64,000 bases of DNA from Stentor roeselii. Lineage: Eukaryota > Ciliophora > Heterotrichea > Heterotrichida > Stentoridae. The notes below the pieces were generated by a model. That model was not told where the DNA came from. It saw only the letters and a program-made list of their open reading frames with translations, and ran no database searches. Position numbers and translations under genes: made by a program. Of this stretch, positions 11,338 to 63,744 are shown in pieces. The stretch is taken from contig RSEH01000150.1 in NCBI GenBank assembly GCA_006503475.1, forward strand, positions 1 to 64,000. The letters are read 5' to 3'. Within the stretch, counting starts at the first letter, position 1. Each line of letters opens with the position of its first letter.

Positions 11338-13695
11338 ATGAAGGGTTTGAGACCAGAAAGAATAACTCAGCGAATAGAGACACAAGGAGCAGCTCCACAA
11401 GCTCGATTCGGCCACACGGTGACGGCGATCTCAAAGACAAAAGTGATCCTCTTCGGTGGAGCGATTGGCGATACAGGTAAATATTCAATCACAGGCGACA
11501 CCTATTGTTTCGACATCGCGACCAGAAGTTGGTCTCGAATCGACCGAGTGTCAGGAGTGGCTCCATCGGCGCGTGCAGCGCACGCGGCCTGCGCAGTTGA
11601 ATCCTTGCAACTCGTCATATACGGCGGAGCGACTGGAGGAGGCTCATTGGCTTCAGATGATTTGTACCTGCTCGACCTCAGAAAAGGCGAAAACGAAGGC
11701 TCTTGGATGATCGTGCCTGTTGTCGGCTCGACGCCTGGAAGACGATACGGCCACAGCTTGGTTTTCATTAAGCCGCACTTATTGGCCTTCGGAGGCAACA
11801 CCGGCAACGAGTCAGTGAACGACGTTTGGAGTTTAAATGTGGAAAAATCGCCTTTTAGCTGGAATAAACTTGAAATCACGGGAGACGTTCCAAAGCCCAG
11901 GGTGTATCACTCGGCTTGTCTTTGTACTACGGGAAGTGCCACAGGAATGATGGTTATTTTTGGAGGAAGGACTAATGACCAGAGCGCACTTAATGATACC
12001 TGGGGACTCAGAAGGCACCGGGATGGACGGTGGGACTGGGTGAGAGCGCCTTATAAGAACTCGAGTGAACAGGCCTTCGCTCGATATCAACATACCAGTC
12101 TTTTCATCGGCAGTAAAATGCTGGTTCTAGGAGGCAGGACTAATCAGGTCGGAGAAGTGGTTCCTGTGGAAGCTTATGATACTGAAAACAGCGAGTGGGT
12201 CAAGTACAGCTCTATTCAACGCTTTCGACATTCAAGCTGGACTCTCGACTCGGAAGTCTTCATTCATGGAGGCTTTGAAAATGAAACTCCCAACATACCG
12301 ACTGACAGCATCATCAAACTTGACTCGAATAAACTCTTCGGCAAGACTGAGCCGATGCAGAGACCTGCTCCTGAACCAAGAGTCAACCTCGACCAAAACC
12401 GCCCGATTCCAAGAGTCCCACGAGCGGCTAACAAGACCCCCGAAATCCGCCTCGCCTCGCAAGTGCTTGTTTCAATGGCAGGAGAAACCAACGACGACTA
12501 CGGCGAACTTGTGAAAAAAGTACCTTTGGACCGTTTGCAAGAAGAAGGGAAAAGAATTGGAGTCAAGCCGCTACCGCCGAGCATGATTAAAAATACTGCT
12601 GCTAATGAAAGCTCAAGTACGATTTTCCTTGATGTACTGTTCAAGTCACATGACTGGAGCAACCTGCAAGAAGTGAAGTTTGTGAAAACAGTGACAGATG
12701 TAAATAGAAGTCATATAAAAAAGGACTTGATTTATAACTTGATACAAGAATGTGAAGATATCTTGAAACTTGAGCCGAATGTTATAAGGATGAGACCACC
12801 TGTTAAGATTTTTGGAAGTCTTCATGGACAGTATGTTGATTTGCTGAGAGCCTTTGAGTCTTATGGAGAACCTTCAGAGAAACTTGTGGATGGAGATATT
12901 GAAAGCTTTGATTATCTCTTTTTGGGAGATTATGTTGATAGAGGGTCGAAAAGTCTTGAAACTATTTTGCTGCTTATGGCTTTGAAGGTCAAACACCCTG
13001 ATCAGATTATTTTGCTTAGAGGGCATCATGAAGACTCGCAGATTAATAGTTTGTATGGACTTGCACAGGAGTGCAGAACGAAACTGGAAGAAGATACAAA
13101 TGACCCTAATTCAGTCTTTGTTTGTTTGAATAGGATGTTTGAGTACCTACCGTTGTGTGCTGTCATCGATGATAAGATCTTATGTCTTCATGCAGGTATC
13201 TCTCAGAGCATCAGAACTGTCGACGATTTCGAAGCCATTCAGAAACCAATATCAATCAACCACATGGTTCAAACTCCTGAGCAGCAGGCTTTATTAGACC
13301 TTCTCTGGGCAGATCCCTGTGAAAATGACCGAGAAACCGGCTTCAAGCCACACACTTCTCGCAACATCTTCGGCAATATCTTCAAATACGGCCTTGACAG
13401 GGTGCAGAAGTTTTTGAGTGACAATAAATTGAGTTTAATGATAAGAAGTCATGAATGCGTGATGGAAGGTTTTGAAAGAAATGCAAGCAATGACCTTATC
13501 ACGCTTTTCTCAGCCACTGACTACTGCGGAAAGTTCAAAAATGCGGCGGCTATTCTTATTGTTAAGAGAAACTTCGAAATAGTGCCTAAAACTATTTATC
13601 CACTGAATGGATCTGTTGGAAGCTGGATTGATAATGATGAAGGACTTAGAATGAGACCTGCCACACCCCCCAAGTGGAAAAATAGTAGGAATTAG
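11338..13695 (+). CDS. PPKL: Kelch-repeat PP1-like phosphatase (PPKL/BSU1 family), probable pseudophosphatase
   Basis: A 785-aa protein. An N-terminal Kelch propeller (residues about 20-330) has repeats such as RFGHTVTAIS, VILFGGA, RYGHSLVFI and RVYHSACLC. A PP1-type phosphatase domain follows (about 450-770). This architecture is PPKL in Alveolata and BSU1 in plants, which controls signalling and, in apicomplexans, apical morphology. Family motifs GDYVDRG, SATDYCG, ADPCEND and IRSHECVMEGFER are present. Two metal-ligand motifs are changed: GDxHG reads GSLHG (Asp to Ser, near 12814) and RGNHE reads RGHHE (Asn to His, near 13020). Without these ligands normal two-metal catalysis is doubtful. 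The stop is TAG and no intron breaks the frame. Confidence 0.9.
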   Translation: MKGLRPERITQRIETQGAAPQARFGHTVTAISKTKVILFGGAIGDTGKYSITGDTYCFDIATRSWSRIDRVSGVAPSARAAHAACAVESLQLVIYGGATGGGSLASDDLYLLDLRKGENEGSWMIVPVVGSTPGRRYGHSLVFIKPHLLAFGGNTGNESVNDVWSLNVEKSPFSWNKLEITGDVPKPRVYHSACLCTTGSATGMMVIFGGRTNDQSALNDTWGLRRHRDGRWDWVRAPYKNSSEQAFARYQHTSLFIGSKMLVLGGRTNQVGEVVPVEAYDTENSEWVKYSSIQRFRHSSWTLDSEVFIHGGFENETPNIPTDSIIKLDSNKLFGKTEPMQRPAPEPRVNLDQNRPIPRVPRAANKTPEIRLASQVLVSMAGETNDDYGELVKKVPLDRLQEEGKRIGVKPLPPSMIKNTAANESSSTIFLDVLFKSHDWSNLQEVKFVKTVTDVNRSHIKKDLIYNLIQECEDILKLEPNVIRMRPPVKIFGSLHGQYVDLLRAFESYGEPSEKLVDGDIESFDYLFLGDYVDRGSKSLETILLLMALKVKHPDQIILLRGHHEDSQINSLYGLAQECRTKLEEDTNDPNSVFVCLNRMFEYLPLCAVIDDKILCLHAGISQSIRTVDDFEAIQKPISINHMVQTPEQQALLDLLWADPCENDRETGFKPHTSRNIFGNIFKYGLDRVQKFLSDNKLSLMIRSHECVMEGFERNASNDLITLFSATDYCGKFKNAAAILIVKRNFEIVPKTIYPLNGSVGSWIDNDEGLRMRPATPPKWKNSRN

Positions 13696-28349: not shown

Positions 28350-29243
28350 ATGGAAGAGCGGGAGAACTTTATTGAATCTATGATGAATTATCTTGAACAG
28401 TTCAATATTCGTGTTGATGATCCACATGAAAAATCGGTTCAGGACTTCATGACTGATTGTTTGGCAGCCTGCATGGAAAGTATCAGAAAAGAGCAAAAAT
28501 CCAAAACCGATCTGCAGGAATCTTTGAAATATCTCGACCTTGATTCAAAGCAAAAGTCCTGCGAACTAGAAGAAAAAACTAATAAAATCCTTCAACTCGA
28601 GTCAGAAACCGCGCGTTTAGAAAACCTAATAAACATGAACAATTTGAAATTCAAGCAAGAACGAGAAAAACTAACTCAAGAGCGAGACCAGGCAAAAAAG
28701 GAGCATTCAAAAATGTCATCTCTCTGCAACCAATACGCTCACGAGATAAAAAAGCGAGAAACTGAATACCTCAAGCTTCAAGAGCAGATGCGAAAATGCT
28801 TAGGAGAAAAAGACTTGCTATATAAAAATTCAATTGAAATAATGAATTCTTTTCACAAGAATGGTCTGAATCTTTCACCTGTCAATGGAGATGAAGATTT
28901 CATTCATTACTTGAAACAAGGACATGTCAACTTTCAGAAGTCTTTTAAAGAGGTTTTCGACTTGCATAGTGAAAGTATTGAGAAGGTTTTCTTTGTCATT
29001 CGGAAAGAATTGGAAAGATTTGGGTTTCAGGTCGACTGGAAAAAACTTAACTTGAACTGTCCTCAGGAATTTAAAAACGAAGTTGACTTTAGGGTTAAAA
29101 ACTTTGAATGTTGTTTGAATAAATTGCAGAAAATCGAGGAGGATAAAGATTATCCTAAGGAAAAGGTTCCTGTGCTTAAGGAGTTACTTAATGACTACAG
29201 AGAAGTGTTTGATTCCGGGATTTTAGCATTACTTAAGTCCTGA
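28350..29243 (+). CDS. Coiled-coil protein resembling ADIP/SSX2IP (Msd1)
   Basis: 297 aa. The start FIESMMNYLEQFNIRVDDP precedes a coiled coil. Within it, NQYAHEIKKRETEYLKLQEQMRK resembles the hallmark HELKKKEREY.KL motif of ADIP/SSX2IP, a centriolar-satellite and microtubule-anchoring protein. The C-terminal part is helical. At about half the animal length it is a compact version, and the assignment is tentative. It ends with TGA followed by in-frame TAA two codons later. It lies 14 bp after the secreted-protein gene. Confidence 0.6.
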   Translation: MEERENFIESMMNYLEQFNIRVDDPHEKSVQDFMTDCLAACMESIRKEQKSKTDLQESLKYLDLDSKQKSCELEEKTNKILQLESETARLENLINMNNLKFKQEREKLTQERDQAKKEHSKMSSLCNQYAHEIKKRETEYLKLQEQMRKCLGEKDLLYKNSIEIMNSFHKNGLNLSPVNGDEDFIHYLKQGHVNFQKSFKEVFDLHSESIEKVFFVIRKELERFGFQVDWKKLNLNCPQEFKNEVDFRVKNFECCLNKLQKIEEDKDYPKEKVPVLKELLNDYREVFDSGILALLKS

Positions 29244-50960: not shown

Positions 50961-53342
50961 ATGTCAAAGACAAATATACCTCTAGTCACCTTGACCAACA
51001 AAGTCTTCCTGCCAGGTTCATCAATGACCTTAGCAATGAAAGACTACAATCTCTGTAAAAATCATTTAGTCTCCCGCGGGAAAAAGCTGAAGATGTTCGG
51101 AATTGTCACTTTTCGAGACCCAGGTAAAAAAATCTTCTACTCTTACGGAACACTTGTCGGGGTGGCTTCAGAGTCGCCCATCATCAACTCAGAAGGAATG
51201 TTTCCAGGCCTGAGCATGGGCCTGACCAACCAAAACAGCTGGAAACTTTTCGTGATAGGTGTTGAAAGATTTAAGATTCTCAACTTTTCAGAAGAAAACG
51301 GAACAGTCTATGCCAATATCCAGGTGGAAAAGGACCGAGATGCAAAAGTATCTGAAAAACTTTTAGATGAACTGAAAAACATTGGAAAAGCTTATATCCG
51401 GTCGTTACCGACTCCTGAGTATATCACTAATGAAAGAGAAAAAATTATTTCAGATGAACAGGATGTGTCTCAGTTAGGGTTTATTATTGCTGGACTTTTA
51501 GAAATTCCTTTTTCGGATAAACAAGCAATTTTAGAGAATTTTCGATTGGAAGATAGGACTCAAAAACTTATTCAACTTCTTAGTTCTTTCTTGGCTGAAG
51601 ACCAACTCAGTCAGGAAGTCTCGGAAAAGATGAAACAGGGCCTTTCGAAAAGACTGGAAATTAGGAAAAAGGAAATTGAAAGTAAACTTGAATCTACTGA
51701 TGACCACCAGGTTCTTGAGGAAAAACTTCAGTCTCTTGAAATTCCTGTTGAGTATAAAAAAGTCGTGTTTGAAGAGATGAAAAGATTGAAAAGTACCAGA
51801 AAGACTTCAGTTGAATATAACTCGTTAAGGAATTATTTGGATACTGTTGTTGCTTTACCTTGGAATGTCTCGTCGAAAGATAGTTATGATATTCACAAAG
51901 CACGTGAAAAACTTGATTCAGATCACTTTGGATTGGAAAAAGTGAAAAAAAGGATTCTTGAGTATATTGCGGTTAGGGCTCTTAGAGGGGATATGAATGG
52001 ATCTATTATTTGCTTTGTTGGACCTCCTGGAGTTGGAAAGACTAGTCTGGGAAAATCTGTTGCTGATGCCATTGGAAGGAAATTCGTTAGGATGGCACTT
52101 GGTGGCGTCAGGGATGAAGCTGAAATTAGGGGACATCGAAGGACTTATGTTGCTTCTATGCCGGGAAGTTTTATTAATGTGAGGTTTATTTAGGCTTTCA
52201 AGAGATGTGGAACAAATAATCCTGTTATACTTTTAGATGAAATTGATAAAGTTGGTACTGGCTCACGTGGCGACCCATCTTCAGCCCTCTTAGAAGTACT
52301 TGACCCAGCTCAAAACCATTCCTTCGTCGACCACTACCTAAGCATTCCATTCGACCTATCAAAAGTCCTCTTCATAGCAACAGCAAACAACCCAGAAGCC
52401 ATCCCGCACGCACTTCTAGACCGAATGGAAATGATAGAAATCACTGGTTACACAATCCACGAAAAGGTAAAAATCGCATCCAACTACTTACTTCCCAAGC
52501 AAATCTCTGAAAACGGTTTAAAACCCGGTTTTTTACAAGTCCCTGAAGAAGTCCTCAGCAAAATAGTTTTAGACTACACCAGAGAAGCCGGAGTAAGACA
52601 ACTAGAAAGAAGCATCAGTGCGATTTGTCGTTGGAACGCAATGAAAGTGATCACATCAGACAACCCAAAATCTTTCACCGTCAAAGAAGAGACTCTAGAA
52701 GAAGTACTTGGAGTTCCTATCTTTATCAATGATCTAAGTCAAAGAGTAGCTGTTCCAGGAGTCGTCATCGGCATGGCCTGGACTGCAGTGGGTGGAAAAA
52801 TCATGATAGTTGAAAGTTCCAAGTGCCCTGGGCAAGGGTCTTTGAAAATCACGGGGAAATTAGGAGAGGTTATGAAAGAATCAGTCAGTACTGCAGTGAG
52901 TTGGATTAAGGTGAACTTAAGAGATATTTTACCGAAGACTGAAAGTTTAACGAAATGTGAAGGTTTTGATGGAGTTGATCTTCATATTCATTTTCCTGCT
53001 GCCGCTGTGCCTAAAGATGGACCTTCTGCTGGAATTACGATTACTACTGCCTTGGTTAGCTTGCTCACAGGCATCAGGGCTAGGGGAGATGTTGCAATGA
53101 CTGGAGAAATATCACTTACTGGAAAAGTACTTCCTATTGGAGGTGTCAAGGAGAAGGTCTTAGGAGCTCATAGAATGGGAATCAAAACTATCATCTTGCC
53201 GAAACTCAATAAAAAAGATATTAAGGAAATACCGGAAATGGTTAAAAAAGAACTGAAATTTGTGCTTGTTGATCATGTCACTGAAGTTATTAAATGTGCT
53301 TTAGAAACCATTCCGTTGAGTCATTTGTGGACTAGGGTTTAA
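50961..53342 (+). CDS. LON: Lon ATP-dependent protease (LONP2-like N-terminus)
   Basis: Exons 50961-52178 and 52194-53342 are joined over a 15-nt intron (gtgaggtttatttag), giving 788 aa. The order is a Lon N-domain (PLVTLTNKVFLPGSSM), AAA+ module (Walker A GPPGVGKTSLGK, Walker B ILLDEIDKVG across exon 2, sensor ATANNPEAIP) and protease domain with catalytic Ser in KDGPSAGIT and Lys in GGVKEKVLG. The N-terminal LPGS and the 788-aa length favour the peroxisomal LONP2 type. However, the C-terminus WTRV is not an SKL-type signal, and no mitochondrial presequence is obvious. It degrades misfolded or oxidised proteins in its compartment. Confidence 0.95.
52179..52193 (+). other. 15-nt intron in the Lon gene
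   Basis: The sequence is gtgaggtttatttag. Splicing joins MPGSFIN to AFKRCGTNNPVILLDEID, a strictly conserved Lon region, so this junction is the best-proven in the window. Confidence 0.97.
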
Positions 53343-56186: not shown

Positions 56187-56492
56187 ATGAAAAAGGTGGA
56201 ACATGAGAGCAGTTCTACAAGAAATGTGGAATTGGTTGATAGTTACGAGATCTCTCCTTATAGTTTCGCTCGTGAACAAGGAATTGACTTGCAAAAACTT
56301 GTGACTGGGGTCTTGGTCTGTGTCTTGGGTTTCGTGTTTTTAGGTGTTTCTATCCAGTATCAAGAAGAGAAATTTATAAGGGATAAGACTTTTAACTATT
56401 ATTGTGCTACTGTTGTTTGCTTGGTGATCGGAGCGTCACTTATTTATAAAGCTTATTATGACAGATATCGCCTTCTCGGAAATTTCGTTTAG
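56187..56492 (+). CDS. Small two-transmembrane protein (possibly TMEM230/134-like)
   Basis: 101 aa with two hydrophobic helices (LVTGVLVCVLGFVFLGVSI and YYCATVVCLVIGASLIY), a short loop between them and a short tail AYYDRYRLLGNF. The spacing resembles TMEM230/TMEM134 vesicle-membrane proteins, but the match is weak. The stop is TAG. It shares an 8-bp start-to-start spacer with the kelch gene. Confidence 0.6.
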   Translation: MKKVEHESSSTRNVELVDSYEISPYSFAREQGIDLQKLVTGVLVCVLGFVFLGVSIQYQEEKFIRDKTFNYYCATVVCLVIGASLIYKAYYDRYRLLGNFV

Positions 56493-56590: not shown

Positions 56591-57970
56591 TCACATCAAA
56601 GGCTTGATCCTCGGCTTGGGTTTTCCTTCAACATCTAAATTTTTATACCGAGCACAAACTTCATCTAAACTTTCAACAGCCTGATCAAATCTTTCCTTTT
56701 CCATGAAGTTTGTGTAATGATGCACATTCGCCTTCCTCTTATAAAGTCTCATGAACTTAGTTTTAAGACTCGCGAAATGGTTAACAATGCAACTGTTATT
56801 AGAAAGACATAAAAGTGAATAAGGCATTCCAACAGGAGGAGTATTACAAAGTCCAATTTTATACCCTTCCTGATTCCAGCTGATCATTTTCATGTCATTT
56901 TTAATTCTACCGATATTTCGATGAATATCAGAAATTTTTGCATCGCCTCTTAAAATAAGTCCACAAGCCAAATAAGTAGAATGTTTCGGGTCGACTTTTA
57001 ACAACTGGAAGTCTTTATCAATAACATCATTAAAGATCTGATCAAGTCGTCTCGGTTCCATTTTCACGTCTAAAATCGAGTACAAGGGACTGATACTTGA
57101 AACTAGATAAGGCATCTTAGGAAAAGGCACAAGGTTCATTGTTATTTCGTTTAAGTCCACGTTTAACATTCCCTCGAAACGCATTGAACAGGTCAGGTTG
57201 TTTAACATGTGAGCGATTATGTTGTTCATTTTGGCGAAGGCTTCTTTTTTGTCGCTTGGCTGGGCGATGTCGTTTTTTATTTCTTTTTTAGATTTTCTTT
57301 TGCTTTCTTCTATCATTTCTAGCATACCGATTAGTGCTTGGTTGTCTACTGGAAGTACACAGTCTGCGAACTCTGTTAGAACACTCATTGCTAGGACTGA
57401 GTTGTATGGACCTGTCACTACATCGTCTTCTGGGAAGACAACTGTGGAAAAACGGAAGACTTCTGGGAAGTTGTCTGCGAGTAATGATAAAGTGTAAGTT
57501 CCAACTCCACTTCCAGTTCCCCCTCCCATACTATGTGTAAGAAAAAACGACTGAATAGAGTCACAATGTTCCACATTATACCTAACTTTCTCCAAAATAT
57601 CCTCATGATACTTCTGTCCATACTCATAATGTCCATGAGCCCAGTTATTTCCAGCTCCAGAAACATCCGAAATAAGCTGGCGGGAATCAAACAATTCGCC
57701 CAGGTCACTTCTAAGCATATTATTGATAACCCCTTCTTCCATATCAATAACAACCGACCTAGCCCTAAGATTACAAATAGGTTTTCCGACAGGTATATCA
57801 AGAGGTTCAGCATACCGAGTATCAACATTTCTAAAAAAGCTCGACAAAGCATCATCAAAAACTCCAGACTTGTTATACCTTGCATGTTCCTGCAAAGCAA
57901 GATCCCAGAACCTCATAGCGATTTGATTTCCACATTGACCAACCTGCACCGTGACGAGTTCTCTAGGCAT
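56591..57970 (-). CDS. TUBE1: Epsilon-tubulin
   Basis: 459 aa. The protein begins RELVTVQVGQCGNQIAMRFWDLALQEH, where FWDLAL is typical of epsilon-tubulin. It has FFRNVDTR, the GTP loop HSMGGGTGSGVGTY, FPEDDVVTGPYNSVLAM, SMRFEGMLNVDLNEI and a long match to the C-terminal domain (MISWNQEGYKIGLC, MRLYKRKANVHHYTNF). Epsilon-tubulin is required for triplet microtubules of centrioles and basal bodies, consistent with a heavily ciliated cell. ATG is at 57970. A selenoprotein gene lies upstream on the same strand, and its SECIS fills the spacer. Confidence 0.95.
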   Translation of the reverse strand: MPRELVTVQVGQCGNQIAMRFWDLALQEHARYNKSGVFDDALSSFFRNVDTRYAEPLDIPVGKPICNLRARSVVIDMEEGVINNMLRSDLGELFDSRQLISDVSGAGNNWAHGHYEYGQKYHEDILEKVRYNVEHCDSIQSFFLTHSMGGGTGSGVGTYTLSLLADNFPEVFRFSTVVFPEDDVVTGPYNSVLAMSVLTEFADCVLPVDNQALIGMLEMIEESKRKSKKEIKNDIAQPSDKKEAFAKMNNIIAHMLNNLTCSMRFEGMLNVDLNEITMNLVPFPKMPYLVSSISPLYSILDVKMEPRRLDQIFNDVIDKDFQLLKVDPKHSTYLACGLILRGDAKISDIHRNIGRIKNDMKMISWNQEGYKIGLCNTPPVGMPYSLLCLSNNSCIVNHFASLKTKFMRLYKRKANVHHYTNFMEKERFDQAVESLDEVCARYKNLDVEGKPKPRIKPLM

Positions 57971-57988
57971 TTATAAGATTAATACTTA

Positions 57989-58033
57989 AACCTCCGACAA
58001 CTGAATACTTTTCCAGCAGTCTTCACTTTGGTT
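57989..58033 (-). promoter_or_regulatory. Candidate SECIS element of glutathione peroxidase 1
   Basis: This is a 45-nt hairpin in the sense strand, starting 5 nt after the stop codon. The outer stem is AACC/GGTT. The 5' side then has AAA and the SECIS-type GTGA. A 10-pair helix follows (GACTGCTGGA pairing with TTCAGTTGTC, with two wobbles and one T-T). The apical loop is AAAGTA, with the A run expected there. The 3' partner of the quartet is GGA. This layout matches the eukaryotic SECIS consensus. The equivalent hairpin in copy 2 shows compensatory changes. Confidence 0.8.
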
Positions 58034-58038
58034 GTGTT

Positions 58039-58545
58039 TTATAAGAATTTCTTGAAATGCTGAACGACTTCTAAAGGATCTGTCCTTGGTCCGTAATACT
58101 CAATCTTGCTTCCGTCTCTGTTCACGATGAACTTTCCGAAGTTCCAACCGATTCGACCACCGTCAAGGTTACTGCGAAGACGGAGGTATTTGAAAAGGTC
58201 GCAGGCTTGCTTTCCGTTTACTTTTGTCTTGGAAAAGACGGGAAATTCTGCACCTTTTGAACGGACAAATGCGAGAATTTCTTGGTCTGAACCTGGCTCT
58301 TGTCTCATGAACTGGTTGCAGGGAAAGGCAAGGATTTGAAGACCTTGGGATGAGTATTCTTTTTCGATTTGGACCAATTCAGCGTAGTGCTGGTTGGTTA
58401 GACCTCACTTTGTCGCAACGTTTACTATCAATAGCACCTTGCCCCTGTAATCTGACATTGAGACAGATTCACCTCCCATCGCTCGTACGGAAATGTCGTA
58501 GATGGAGGTGAAGGGGTTGGCGCAGCTGGATTTAGCTCCACCCAT
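58039..58545 (-). CDS. Selenocysteine glutathione peroxidase 1 (in-frame TGA at residue 47)
   Basis: 168 aa from ATG 58545 to TAA 58039-58041. A TGA at 58405-58407 is read as selenocysteine. It sits in VNVATK-U-GLTNQHYAEL, exactly where GPx enzymes have catalytic Sec or Cys. The remaining tetrad is present: Gln in FPCNQF, Trp and Asn in GWNFGKF. The family reduces hydroperoxides with glutathione or thioredoxin. The absence of the oligomer loop makes it GPx4-like, so lipid hydroperoxides are possible substrates. The start MGGAKSSC could be myristoylated. An ordinary gene call would begin at GTG 58377 and miss the first third. It is tandem with copy 2 upstream. Confidence 0.92.
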
Positions 58546-59079
58546 TTTATTAGACCTAAATTTTTACTGATTTTATGTAATTTGCATGTTAAAAGCCAAC
58601 AGAAATCCAGTTTAAGTTGAATTTTCAAGTGATTTAAAGATAAATTTGTCAATATATGTATATCTAATAATTTAACTTATGAAATCGACTATAAATCCAA
58701 TTAATCTTTTCAAAGTTTCATTCATTTTTTTTCAAAAACTATTATCATCAGAAATCCTTTGAATTTTCAATTTTAAATTGAAAGTTGAGCTAAAGATTTT
58801 GGATAAAATTAATTTCAATGAAACACAAGTTGAAGTTTTCATTTTAACTAAATATCACAAATTTATATGAAATAACATACGACCCAAGACTAGATAATAT
58901 TCAGCATAAATTATTCTCAGAAATATCATATCTTGAAAGAGAAAATTAAAGGCCTTCCACTCATAACTCCTTATTCTCTCTCTAAAATATATTATAAGAT
59001 TCGAATAAAAAACCCTCCTCCAAAGAATTTCACCTTTTTCATCATCTTCAAAGATACCATTTCTTATATTAATTATATT
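58546..59079. other. AT-rich spacer between the two glutathione peroxidase genes
   Basis: 534 bp between the start of copy 1 and the SECIS hairpin of copy 2, both on the minus strand. It should contain the copy 1 promoter. The 67-codon plus-strand frame at 58933-59136 is low-complexity and overlaps the SECIS, so it is not accepted. Nothing else is seen. Confidence 0.5.
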
Positions 59080-59124
59080 AACCTCAGACAGCTGATTACT
59101 TTATCAGCAGTCTTCACTTTGGTT
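59080..59124 (-). promoter_or_regulatory. Candidate SECIS element of glutathione peroxidase 2
   Basis: A 45-nt hairpin starts 6 nt after the stop, homologous to that of copy 1. The outer stem is AACC/GGTT, then AAA, GTGA, and a helix of GACTGCTGAT pairing with ATCAGCTGTC (nine canonical pairs and one T-T). The loop is AAAGTA, and the 3' side of the quartet is TGA. The pairing here is stronger than in copy 1. At three helix positions the pairs differ between copies while pairing is kept. Confidence 0.85.
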
Positions 59125-59130
59125 GTTATT

Positions 59131-59636
59131 TTATAAGAATGGTGTAAAAAAAGGAACTACATCCAAAGGACAAGTTTTAGGTCCAAAGTACTGAATGAGG
59201 CTCCCATCTCTATTAACAAGAAACTTTGCAAAGTTCCAAGTAATTTCACCTCCATTCAAGTTGCTATTGAGTCTGAGATACTTGTAAAGATCAGAAGCTT
59301 CATTTCCATTCACCATAATTTTAGAAAAGACTGGAATTCTGCACCTTTGGAACGAACAAATGAAAGAACTACTTGATCCGAGTCTGGCTCTTGAGCTCCG
59401 AATTGATTGCAAGGAAAGGCAAGGATCTGAAGGCCGGAAGAAGAATATTGTCTTTCGATTTGGACTAACTCGTTGTAGTATTGACTTGTAAGTCCTCACT
59501 TTGATGCCACGTTTACTATTAAAAGCACCTTGTCCCGGTATTCTGACATTGAGACAGAACCTCCTCCGATCGCGTTCACTGAGATGTCGTAGACGGAGGT
59601 GAAGGGATTGGTGCAGCTAGAATTAGCTCCATCCAT
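59131..59636 (-). CDS. Selenocysteine glutathione peroxidase 2 (TGA at residue 47; one-base frameshift)
   Basis: ATG is at 59636 and TAA at 59131-59133. TGA at 59496-59498 occupies the catalytic position in VNVASK-U-GLTSQYYNEL, in register with copy 1. FPCNQF and the TWNFAKF block carry the rest of the tetrad. Between codons for SKGAEF and VFSK, near 59333-59336, one base is missing relative to copy 1. The two halves are therefore in different frames. This may be a recent inactivation or an assembly error, since everything else including the SECIS is preserved. The N-terminus is MDGANSSC, so Gly2 of copy 1 is lost. Confidence 0.8.
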
Positions 59637-59886: not shown

Positions 59887-62800
59887 CTAACTATGATGTA
59901 AAGCCAGAAGTTTATCAAGTTTCTGCTCAATCCTCAAGTTATTCTCAAGTCCCTTCAGCTGATTTTTCTCAATTTCCCTAAACCTTCCATTAAAATCCTT
60001 TGAAATTTTTTCAATTTTCATTTCGATTTCCTTAATCTTCCCTCCCCAAGGTTCATCTTCATTTTCCTTAGTATCCAAATCACAAAGTTGTAAAAATCCC
60101 TTTTTTTTGACAGTTTTAACCAATAAAAACAAGCTTTCAACTTCTGAAATAACATCAAGTTTTTCTTTATAATCCAATTCCAGTGCCTCTATTTGAAACT
60201 TATCAAAAGAGTCACTGATAACAGCGATGAGTAGATTGAGCATCATGACGATATTCAGCAAAGAAGCTAAAACAAAATAAAGATACTCAATATTCGGCTT
60301 TGAACTTGCTTCAAATACTCCAAAGTTCAATTCATAAGGAATTTTCCAAAGCATGTTGAAAGCGTCTTCCCTGGGGCCGACTGAAGCAATATAAAGTCCT
60401 CCAAAGGCAAGCGTCGTGTAAAAGAAAATAATTAAAAAATACGCTGAGTCTGAAATGATCCGAGTCAACAAAGCGATGTAAAACCTTGTCCCGTCAAAAG
60501 CTTTAAAAATGTTCAGTCCTTTCATAAAGTTGAAAAAAGTCATCAACCATTGCACTCCCGGAGAATTAATATCATAAATCATGAAAATGCTCCAGATTAA
60601 AGTGAATATAATGCTGAGAATGTCGATGATGTTTCTTCTGCATATAAAGTAAACTTTCACTCCTTCATAAATAAACTGAAGGACTTCATGTAACAACATC
60701 ACCAAGTTCAACCCCATAAAAACCATCAAAATCCTCGAGTCCTTCCCTTCAGTCGACAAGTTTGCAAGCATCAAAACGATATTCAAACTCAAAACAGCAC
60801 TAAAAAATAAAACAATTTTATAAAAAACCCGAAATTTATAATCAAGAATCGTTCTAACCAGTTTCGTTGTAAAGATTTTCTGATTTTTCACAAAAGCCAG
60901 CGCTTTGATCATCTGAAAAAATCCAGAACTTCCATTAGTGAGATTGATTTGGAAAGGAGTCGTTCGAAATTCAACAAAACTTTCATATTTCAAGTTAATT
61001 TTCATTACCCCGCATTCACTTTTGAACTCTTCGAAGTTGATCTTGGTATGATGAGTGAACATGAGAACTGGCGGCTTTAAACATCTGATGCTGTTAGGAA
61101 GTCCTTTGTCTTTACTCACCTTGAAAACACTTTCAAGGTACACAGGGACTAAAGGCGAGGAAAGTTTAAGAATTTTAAAAAAATCATCTCTGATAGCAAA
61201 GTTGTATTCAAAGTACTGTGCAAGAGTTTTTTCAGTTTTACTCAAGTTTATCAAGAACTGTAAAATAATGTCTGTTGATTTCTGAGAGTCTTTCTGGATT
61301 GAGTAGAAAAGAGGAGAGTTTTTATAGGAATCTCGACGAATTGGGCATCCTAGTTGAAGGGCTTTTTCCAGGTTGGTGTAATACCCGAGGTAACTGTAAA
61401 GATGAGCTAGGTTCACCTGCCCCGGCATGATAATCTTACAGTCAGAAGCCACTGGCAGAAGCTTTTTATTGAACCTTTGCCTGAAACCATTATAAACAAG
61501 AGCAGGGTACAAATTCGAATTTCTTTCTAAAATTTCTGAGTGCTTCAAAGGCACCTTTTTCTTGATTTTCAAGTAGTCCCGGTCTAAAGACCTATCGGGC
61601 AGGTCAAAAGTCTCATCTCCTGATTTTGAGCGATTGATTCTGAGCAACTGAGAAAGTTTCCAGATCTTTATCGAAGTGTCACGTGAACCACTTATCAGGT
61701 ACTTATTTGAGTCAGTCAATTCGAGACTTTCTACTTGATCTGTGTGGCCTTTGAAAGTCATTTCAATCCGCTTTTCAGACATGTTGAAAATTTCGATGTT
61801 TCCTTCTTTGTTCCCCACGATGATGAAATTTCCACAACCGGTGACAACGCATTTTTTTATTGCTGAAGAACATCGAAAACAAGAAACTTCGAGTTTTTTG
61901 TTTATGTTGAAAACTTTTAACTCGACATCGTCTGAGACTATGGAAAAAACTGAGGAGGATAAAATGTTTAAGATTATTGGCCACTTGCTGTTTTGCTCTT
62001 TTAACACGCAGAATACTTCAAAATTGTCGAAATTTAAGATTTGAATTGTTGTGTCTGTTAAAATCACAACTAGTTTAGAATAATTTGCAATGAACTGAAA
62101 TCCGTGGATTGATGAATTAATTTTTTTCCTTTGTATGAAGACTTGCTTCTTCAAATTAAAAACGTCAAGACAGCCGTCAAGGGATGAAATCACTATAAGT
62201 CCTTGCCTGTTGAATTCTAGAGACGAAATCGCATCGTCGTATTTTAAGGAAGTGTAAAAGCTTAGGGTTTCGATTGAACAGAACCTGACGGTGTAGTCGC
62301 CTGAGGTGTACGCGAAAAAGTCATCTAAGTGATTCACAGCTAGACGATAAATATAACTCGAAGGACCTTCAAATGTATGAATCAAAGTCCCAGTGGAAAC
62401 CTCCCACATCTTCACTGTCGAGTCCCAAGAGCAACTTAAAACTTTTCCATCTTGAGTCTGACCAAGTCCACTAACATAATGAGAATGTGACTTGAGCACA
62501 TGTAAAGGTTTTGATTGTTTCATCTTCCAGATGATCACAAGTTTATCCCACCCTCCACTTATCAGGTGTTTGTTGTCGACTGCCATTAGTAAACAACTCA
62601 CGTAGTTTGAATGACCTGATAAGGAAATTTTAGTACTTTTGTCGTTGATGTCCCAAAATTTTAATGACTTGTCGAAACTACAGGATATTATTTTACTGTT
62701 GTTTTCGATGGTCTCGATGTCTGTGATTATTCCAGAATGACCTTCGAGTATCAGCTCGTGCCGGTTTTCTAACATGTTGTCTATCACGATGCTTCTGTAT

Positions 62801-63744
62801 GAGACACTTATTAAGAAGTTACTTTTGCCGATTAGACGAACATAGCTTATGTAGCTTAAGTGAGAGTCTTGAAGGAAAAGTAGAGATTTTAATTTGGTGT
62901 CCCAAACTCGCACTGTTTTATCTTGTGAACCGCTTGCTAAAATGGAATCGTCGTGGTTGAAGGCTGTTGAGTATATTTCTCCTACATGCCCAATGAAAGT
63001 AAATATCTCTTCACCCTTCCCAAAATTCCAAAGTTTCACCGAATAATCCCCTCCACCAGAAGCCATAAGCTCCTTTTTATTCCCAACAGAAAAGCAGTTA
63101 ATCCAACTTTTATGCCCTTCAAATTTCGCAGTATATTTAAAAGTATCCAAATCCCAAACAATCAAGCAAGCATCTTGCGAAGCCGAGACCAAAACATTCC
63201 CCTTAGCAATTTTAATCGAATTGACAGGTCCCTGATGCGCACTAAGTTTAATTTCCGGAAAATCCGTGAGAAACTTCCAGACCCTGACAGAAAAATCATC
63301 ACTTCCAACACAAGCCAAGTTTCCACCTTCATTAAAACAAATCGTTTCAGGCATGGCGGGTTCCAAGTTTAAAGACTTGAAGAACTTTGAACTAATCACA
63401 TCAAAAATCGCGATAGTTGAATCATGAGAAGCTGTTAAAATAAACTGATCACAGGCAGAGATTTTAATTCCAATGATACTTTTCGAGTGATATTTGAATG
63501 TTTCAACGATTTGATTAGAAGTGATGTCGAATTTTATCACAAGGCCTCCTTCACAGCCGATGAAGAGTTCTTTTGAGGTTTTTGTTGGGGCAAGGTTGTA
63601 AAGAACTACTTCTGAGTTGAAAGTTTGGTAGTAAAGAGGGTAGTCTTCTTTTAGTCGCTCGGAAAGAATTTTAAGTGAGTTGGACTTGGAGCATTTTTCT
63701 TCGAGAACTGTCGCGTCGTGAGGGATGTAGTCGGGAATAATCAT
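59887..63744 (-). CDS. WD40-TRP/polycystin-like ion channel fusion protein
   Basis: 1285 aa in one frame. Residues about 50-740 carry about 14 WD40 repeats (ASHDSTIAIFDV, ASGGGDYSVKLWNFGKGEEI, ASGSQDKTVRVWDTKLKSL, SGSRDTSIKIWKL), which would form two propellers. A linker follows with one or two ankyrin-like helices (LYSYLGYYTNLEKALQLG). Residues about 965-1200 form a six-helix ion-transport domain: S1 FYKIVLFFSAVLSLNIVLML, S5 AYFLIIFFYTTLAFGGLYIA, a pore segment with LWKIPYELNFGVFE, and S6 with VMMLNLLIAVISDSFDKF, typical of TRP-like channels. A coiled-coil tail ends the protein. It is likely a cation channel whose large cytosolic propellers bind regulators. ATG is at 63744. Confidence 0.9.
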   Translation of the reverse strand: MIIPDYIPHDATVLEEKCSKSNSLKILSERLKEDYPLYYQTFNSEVVLYNLAPTKTSKELFIGCEGGLVIKFDITSNQIVETFKYHSKSIIGIKISACDQFILTASHDSTIAIFDVISSKFFKSLNLEPAMPETICFNEGGNLACVGSDDFSVRVWKFLTDFPEIKLSAHQGPVNSIKIAKGNVLVSASQDACLIVWDLDTFKYTAKFEGHKSWINCFSVGNKKELMASGGGDYSVKLWNFGKGEEIFTFIGHVGEIYSTAFNHDDSILASGSQDKTVRVWDTKLKSLLFLQDSHLSYISYVRLIGKSNFLISVSYRSIVIDNMLENRHELILEGHSGIITDIETIENNSKIISCSFDKSLKFWDINDKSTKISLSGHSNYVSCLLMAVDNKHLISGGWDKLVIIWKMKQSKPLHVLKSHSHYVSGLGQTQDGKVLSCSWDSTVKMWEVSTGTLIHTFEGPSSYIYRLAVNHLDDFFAYTSGDYTVRFCSIETLSFYTSLKYDDAISSLEFNRQGLIVISSLDGCLDVFNLKKQVFIQRKKINSSIHGFQFIANYSKLVVILTDTTIQILNFDNFEVFCVLKEQNSKWPIILNILSSSVFSIVSDDVELKVFNINKKLEVSCFRCSSAIKKCVVTGCGNFIIVGNKEGNIEIFNMSEKRIEMTFKGHTDQVESLELTDSNKYLISGSRDTSIKIWKLSQLLRINRSKSGDETFDLPDRSLDRDYLKIKKKVPLKHSEILERNSNLYPALVYNGFRQRFNKKLLPVASDCKIIMPGQVNLAHLYSYLGYYTNLEKALQLGCPIRRDSYKNSPLFYSIQKDSQKSTDIILQFLINLSKTEKTLAQYFEYNFAIRDDFFKILKLSSPLVPVYLESVFKVSKDKGLPNSIRCLKPPVLMFTHHTKINFEEFKSECGVMKINLKYESFVEFRTTPFQINLTNGSSGFFQMIKALAFVKNQKIFTTKLVRTILDYKFRVFYKIVLFFSAVLSLNIVLMLANLSTEGKDSRILMVFMGLNLVMLLHEVLQFIYEGVKVYFICRRNIIDILSIIFTLIWSIFMIYDINSPGVQWLMTFFNFMKGLNIFKAFDGTRFYIALLTRIISDSAYFLIIFFYTTLAFGGLYIASVGPREDAFNMLWKIPYELNFGVFEASSKPNIEYLYFVLASLLNIVMMLNLLIAVISDSFDKFQIEALELDYKEKLDVISEVESLFLLVKTVKKKGFLQLCDLDTKENEDEPWGGKIKEIEMKIEKISKDFNGRFREIEKNQLKGLENNLRIEQKLDKLLALHHS

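Follow-up and report, generated by a model that had tools for sequence, protein, structure and literature searches.

The locus analysed here raises the question of how an in-frame TGA codon is read in two neighbouring genes for glutathione peroxidase (GPx). Within the window, by which we mean the whole 64,000-nucleotide stretch of DNA, both genes (copies A and B) lie on the minus strand with a spacing of 585 nucleotides, each starting with ATG. As shown in Table 1, both carry TGA as codon 47, in the contexts VNVATK-TGA-GLT (A) and VNVASK-TGA-GLT (B), so that the frames and positions given in the original prediction were borne out. We consider it very likely that this is a tandem pair of phospholipid hydroperoxide-type GPx (PHGPx) genes from a Stentor-like heterotrich, in which UGA-47 is recoded as selenocysteine (Sec) by means of a compact SECIS element situated past the UAA stop codon.

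Table 1. Positions of the features identified in the window (numbered from its first letter).
Feature	Position	Strand	Details and basis
GPx copy A, coding sequence	58039..58545	-	507 nt, 168 aa plus TAA; in-frame TGA; Pfam, PDB, A/B alignment
GPx copy B, coding sequence	59131..59636	-	506 nt; in-frame TGA and one-base frameshift; ends with TAA; Pfam, A/B alignment
TGA codon 47, copy A (Sec position)	58405..58407	-	A/B, bacterial and PDB alignments
TGA codon 47, copy B (Sec position)	59496..59498	-	A/B alignment
Frame break, copy B (one base shorter than A)	about 59336..59337	-	A/B alignment
SECIS-like hairpin, copy A	57991..58026	-	GTGA core 58023-58026, 12 nt past TAA
SECIS-like hairpin, copy B	59082..59117	-	GTGA core 59114-59117, 13 nt past TAA
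Conserved post-stop block, copy A	57989..58040	-	First two bases are part of the stop codon
Conserved post-stop block, copy B	59080..59131	-	Starts at the stop codon
Candidate 15-nt GT-AG introns, rejoining open frames	32646, 46795, 52179	+	Short-intron scan
Candidate 15-nt GT-AG introns, rejoining open frames	25893, 22816, 16010	-	Short-intron scan

The Pfam family GSHPx (PF00255) matched copy A with 124 bits over residues 15-122 (cut-off of 27) and the N-terminal part of copy B with 92.3 bits; the C-terminal 70-aa piece of B searched alone gave no Pfam match. When copy A was compared with PDB sequences, U being passed as C, 41 distinct sequences were matched at E ≤ 0.001 (best value, 1.6e-44). 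The TGA residue of A stood opposite a Cys, which we take to be the catalytic Cys of GPx, in all four PDB alignments shown, and the codon aligned to it encoded Cys in 43 of the 43 bacterial homologues fetched (TGC in 28, TGT in 15), a count biased because KCGLTNQH, a member of the set of six search peptides, was written with Cys for U. These alignments place the TGA at the catalytic Sec/Cys position of the family, as had been claimed, and the proposed alignment to GPx4-type enzymes gave matches of A to PDB 2obi and 7l8k over residues 13-162. U47, Q82 (read from FPCNQFMRQEP), W134 and N135 of A are what we take to be its catalytic tetrad, and the tetrad motifs are also present in B, spread over its two frames. 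A GPx tetrad of U or C, Q, W and N is described in the available portion of PMC7409322. A search of viral contigs with the GPx protein and with a 22-base piece of the post-stop block described below returned no relative.

The differences between A and B at the first, second and third codon positions amounted to 5, 4 and 15 before the TGA, 8, 8 and 25 from the TGA to a single-base indel, and 13, 16 and 40 after the indel, third positions accounting for 25 of 41 and 40 of 69 changes in the two segments after the TGA. Values of dN/dS (Nei-Gojobori, A vs B) were 0.243 before the TGA and 0.084 from the TGA to the indel, where dS was 1.8; after the indel, pN was 0.21 compared to a pS of 0.86, and dN/dS was not computable because synonymous sites were saturated. 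Shifted-frame controls for the two segments after the TGA gave ratios of 1.6-2.1. Constraint on the protein beyond the TGA, despite near-saturation of synonymous sites, indicates that translation passes this codon, and thus both genes were translated past it for most of their history. Fourfold degenerate sites were identical between the copies at 13 of 20 positions before the TGA and at 16 of 38 after it; gene conversion or an extra constraint might lie behind the excess before the TGA, the numbers being small.

Copy B departs from A in that its frame breaks 53 codons after the TGA. Past the break the old frame meets stop codons, and the conserved C-terminal part continues in a different frame as far as TAA. 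An intron was ruled out as the source of the length difference, since the whole-gene alignment of A and B contained one single-base gap. We give a substantial, though minor, share of our belief to a copy B that is truly broken in the organism, with A as the sole working copy of the pair. The one-base length difference within the coding sequence and the stops that follow it in the old frame speak for such a copy, whereas the downstream frame is constrained (with the pN and pS values given above), the SECIS-like element of B keeps its pairs, so that any break would be recent, and an assembly error accounts for the length difference equally well. Since the frame downstream of the indel is still constrained, the indel is either recent or an error; a mistake in sequencing or assembly, with the gene itself intact, is more likely than a recent break in copy B. 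We think programmed frameshifting in B unlikely. Sec had been predicted in both copies, which is well supported for A and, in B, as far as the TGA and the SECIS-like element go, but not as to an intact frame, the break having been overlooked.

By repeat search alone, a conserved block of 52 nucleotides, 87% identical between the copies and in each starting at the stop codon, was found after both genes. The original prediction, sound as to the tandem GPx genes and their TGA, had missed it. The block consists of AACC-AAA-GTGA, an 11-nt arm, the loop AAAGTA, the 3' arm and then GA-GGTT, and its hairpin agrees with the core of a eukaryotic SECIS element in having NTGA/GA and, at a distance of about 11 nt, AA in the apical loop. 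Positions identical between A and B after the stops numbered 43 of 50 in the block compared to 16 of 38 among the fourfold sites past the TGA (Fisher p of 1.6e-5), and identity just beyond the block was 13 of 40. Helix II comprises nine standard pairs common to A and B and one U.U mismatch, with a closing pair that is A.G in A and A-U in B. Four substitutions fell within the nine common pairs, changing one pair two-sidedly and two one-sidedly and breaking none, a pattern of covariation drawn from two sequences; the chance of four random substitutions keeping all nine pairs is about 0.007-0.009. Sliding the partners by 1-3 columns lowered the proportion of paired cells from 96.4% to 7-50%, and column shuffles (256 of 500) were uninformative with two rows. 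Helix II appeared in all four predicted folds, and the hairpin of B was unusually stable in folding energy (z of −3.28 and −3.79), unlike that of A (z of −0.71 and −0.67).

A hairpin descriptor, fixed after the hairpins had been seen and with ranges in line with the SECIS literature, matched the 150-nt post-stop flanks of 2 of 40 open reading frames (ORFs), which were exactly GPx A and B. Applied to the whole window on both strands, it produced 8 matches compared to a mean of 1.5 in 30 simulated sequences, from which it follows that the simulated null understates chance matches; when at least seven Watson-Crick pairs were demanded, three matches were obtained (GPx A, GPx B and one at 56204 on the plus strand) compared to 0.4 in the simulations. 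The quartet is UGAA/GGAG in A and UGAA/UGAG in B, compared to the usual UGAN/KGAW, the last place being G and not A/U; the pair beside the G.A tandem is U with G, off the UGAN/KGAW pattern, and the other end of the quartet of A is A.G. The same quartet departure is given, in the accessible text of PMC7409322, for one lower-grade predicted ciliate element in a gene without Sec. Rfam searches, performed over the whole window at the gathering threshold and over three stretches at E ≤ 10, matched no SECIS family. The lower stem of the hairpin is 4 bp long. An outer stem of 8 bp that includes some of the stop-codon bases was predicted in B (59060-59145, minus strand) and not in A. The tubulin-like ORF that follows GPx A starts 68 nt past its stop codon, and the SECIS-like hairpin fills much of this gap.

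Ribosomes might also insert a standard amino acid at UGA-47, or read through it only rarely, with the hairpin serving, for instance, in mRNA stability or 3'-end formation. Sec insertion is something we infer from sequence, Rfam does not class the hairpin as SECIS, and neither SECIS nor tRNA-Sec was found for Stentor coeruleus according to the sections of PMC7409322 at hand. Against this, the hairpin follows none of the 38 other ORFs scanned and carries GTGA_AA_GA, the SECIS class II pattern and the quartet of another Sec-GPx, found in one flatworm (PMC2679728, in excerpt), and S. coeruleus is stated to have tRNA-Sec, with the genome paper as source, in the part of PMC6879139 available. Such readthrough is improbable in our view. 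It is more improbable still that both genes are pseudogenes with a common old nonsense mutation: although B has a second lesion in its one-base frameshift, third-position changes dominate after the TGA, dN/dS from the TGA to the indel is as low as reported above, the TGA falls exactly on the Sec/Cys codon, and the hairpin is conserved after both stops.

Genetic codes in which UGA is a sense codon exist in ciliates, Euplotes reading it as Cys and Blepharisma as Trp. The window contains 39 ORFs of at least 150 aa, of which 38 were counted, one nested in the tubulin gene being dropped; they end with TAG (17), TAA (16) or TGA (5). Genes had been predicted to end with TGA at 29243, 31178, 43761 and 54259, as all of them do; the TGA of the tubulin-like ORF (56591), the fifth such gene, had been overlooked. 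The next TAA or TAG was only 2-6 codons past the TGA in four of these five ORFs; in the remaining one it was 96 codons away because this stretch overlaps the next gene. The ORFs ending at 52193, 25890 and 22813, none of which is TGA-ended, end in or beside candidate introns, and the real gene ends may lie elsewhere than at the TAA or TAG. A host in which TGA is a sense codon for Trp or Cys is scarcely credible, with 5 of 38 ORFs ending in TGA, mostly with a TAA or TAG nearby, and with TGG (154), TGT (170) and TGC (113; TGT and TGC together, 283) all in use in these ORFs. The genetic code of the host is the standard one, with TGA as a stop codon. Among heterotrichs' published codes, UGA is Trp in Blepharisma stoltei (PMC9942806) and the standard code is reported for S. 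coeruleus (PMC10553269), both according to the available excerpts.

A scan for short introns with lengths of 10-30 nt yielded six candidates of 15 nt, compared to three or fewer at any other length. One of them splits a Lon protease gene; with the candidate taken out, the frame is open and, by its motif, looks like Lon. An A was present at position 10 in five of the six candidates (read by eye), the position of the branch point in most 15-nt introns of S. coeruleus according to the excerpted text of PMC9505925. The six candidates and their A at position 10 point to a Stentor-like host. The suggestion that a heterotrich pair might be unannotated agreed with the 15-nt introns as to the heterotrich, and is not supported as to the annotation, seven Sec-GPx of S. 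coeruleus being listed in PMC7409322.

ARAGORN detected no tRNA in the window, and the Sec-machinery families EFSec, SBP2 and SPS were absent from the listed Pfam matches of 30 other window ORFs, the lists for three of these ORFs extending to 25 matches. Other genes of the window include an ORF of 1285 aa (59887-63744, minus strand) with many WD40 repeats and an Ion_trans domain in its C-terminal part (34.7 bits), and another (11338-13695, plus strand) in which Pfam placed Kelch repeats joined to a calcineurin-like phosphatase. The tubulin-like ORF (56591-57970, minus strand) is divergent, with about equal similarity to alpha and beta chains among the best 60 of 170 PDB matches, and we assume that it may be an epsilon-tubulin.

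For copy A, Sec at the TGA has good support from the family position, the standard code, selection on the sequence that follows this codon and the SECIS-like element of the 3' flank. Gene family, TGA position, post-TGA selection and the conservation of a hairpin in which substitutions preserve the pairs were seen directly. Those parts of eukaryotic Sec insertion that are visible in DNA are present, namely a UGA at the catalytic site and, in the 3' flank, a hairpin built around a GA core. It is very probable that copy A encodes a selenoprotein and has a SECIS of its own. From these features we infer Sec insertion itself, its trans-acting factors in the host, enzyme activity and mRNAs that extend past the hairpin. 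A SECIS-binding protein would hold the kink-turn-like GA core of the hairpin and deliver EFSec and its Sec-tRNA to a ribosome that has reached UGA-47, after which translation would go on to the UAA; the resulting enzyme would reduce peroxides via Sec47 with Gln82, Trp134 and Asn135.

Sec-GPx enzymes in Stentor are already published, and the SECIS-like signal is the new part of this work. In the literature on ciliate, heterotrich and Stentor selenoproteins, mostly open-access and partly in excerpt, we found no report of SECIS for heterotrich Sec-GPx, and the available parts of PMC10235951, PMC10946202 and PMC4561486 contain nothing on Stentor SECIS. We tentatively propose, as an idea that is possible rather than probable, that heterotrichs use an ultra-compact class of SECIS abutting the stop codon (12-13 nt), which in copy A fits the gap before the next gene. 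If this is true, a ribosome in the act of termination at UAA would cover part of the lower stem, SECIS folding may compete with termination, and the compact placement may be why earlier searches missed SECIS in Stentor Sec-GPx. A clear SECIS candidate that sits right past the stop codon and is shared in conserved form by two old paralogues provides a concrete search pattern for other genes. It is also an example of a recoding signal in the 3' flank that is fitted tightly between close genes. Ciliate Sec-GPx without a detectable SECIS, including all seven of Stentor, are called mysterious in the excerpts of PMC7409322, and this published puzzle becomes testable.

Copy A resembles GPX4, the phospholipid hydroperoxide GPx (PDB 2obi, 7l8k), over the span aligned above and in its catalytic tetrad and the spacing from Sec to Gln. 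At the place of the Cys in FVCTR of poplar GPX5, copy A has Arg. By sequence comparison, A would be a GPx of the phospholipid-hydroperoxide type. Among known enzymes, the seven GPx of S. coeruleus (SteGPx1-7), as far as the accessible sections of PMC7409322 describe them, are likewise heterotrich enzymes of this family, all seven having Sec as a member of the catalytic tetrad, and the mass computed for A (18.9 kDa) lies within their range of 18.4-21.5 kDa. Two residues before Sec, SteGPx1-7 have Ser or Cys (PMC7409322, Table 2), whereas A has Thr and B has Ser; the Thr suggests that A may be unlisted or belong to another species. SECIS was detected for none of SteGPx1-7 in that source, in contrast to A and B with their SECIS-like hairpin after the stop. 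The hairpin differs from usual eukaryotic SECIS elements in the G for A/U at the last quartet place, in its 4-bp lower stem and in having no Rfam match, and its core lies 12-13 nt from the stop codon compared to the 50-110 bases quoted in the available text of PMC7409322. It is like the eukaryotic class II SECIS (PMC2679728) in its GTGA, its 11 nt, the AAA that opens the apical loop, its 3' GA and its placement past the stop codon.
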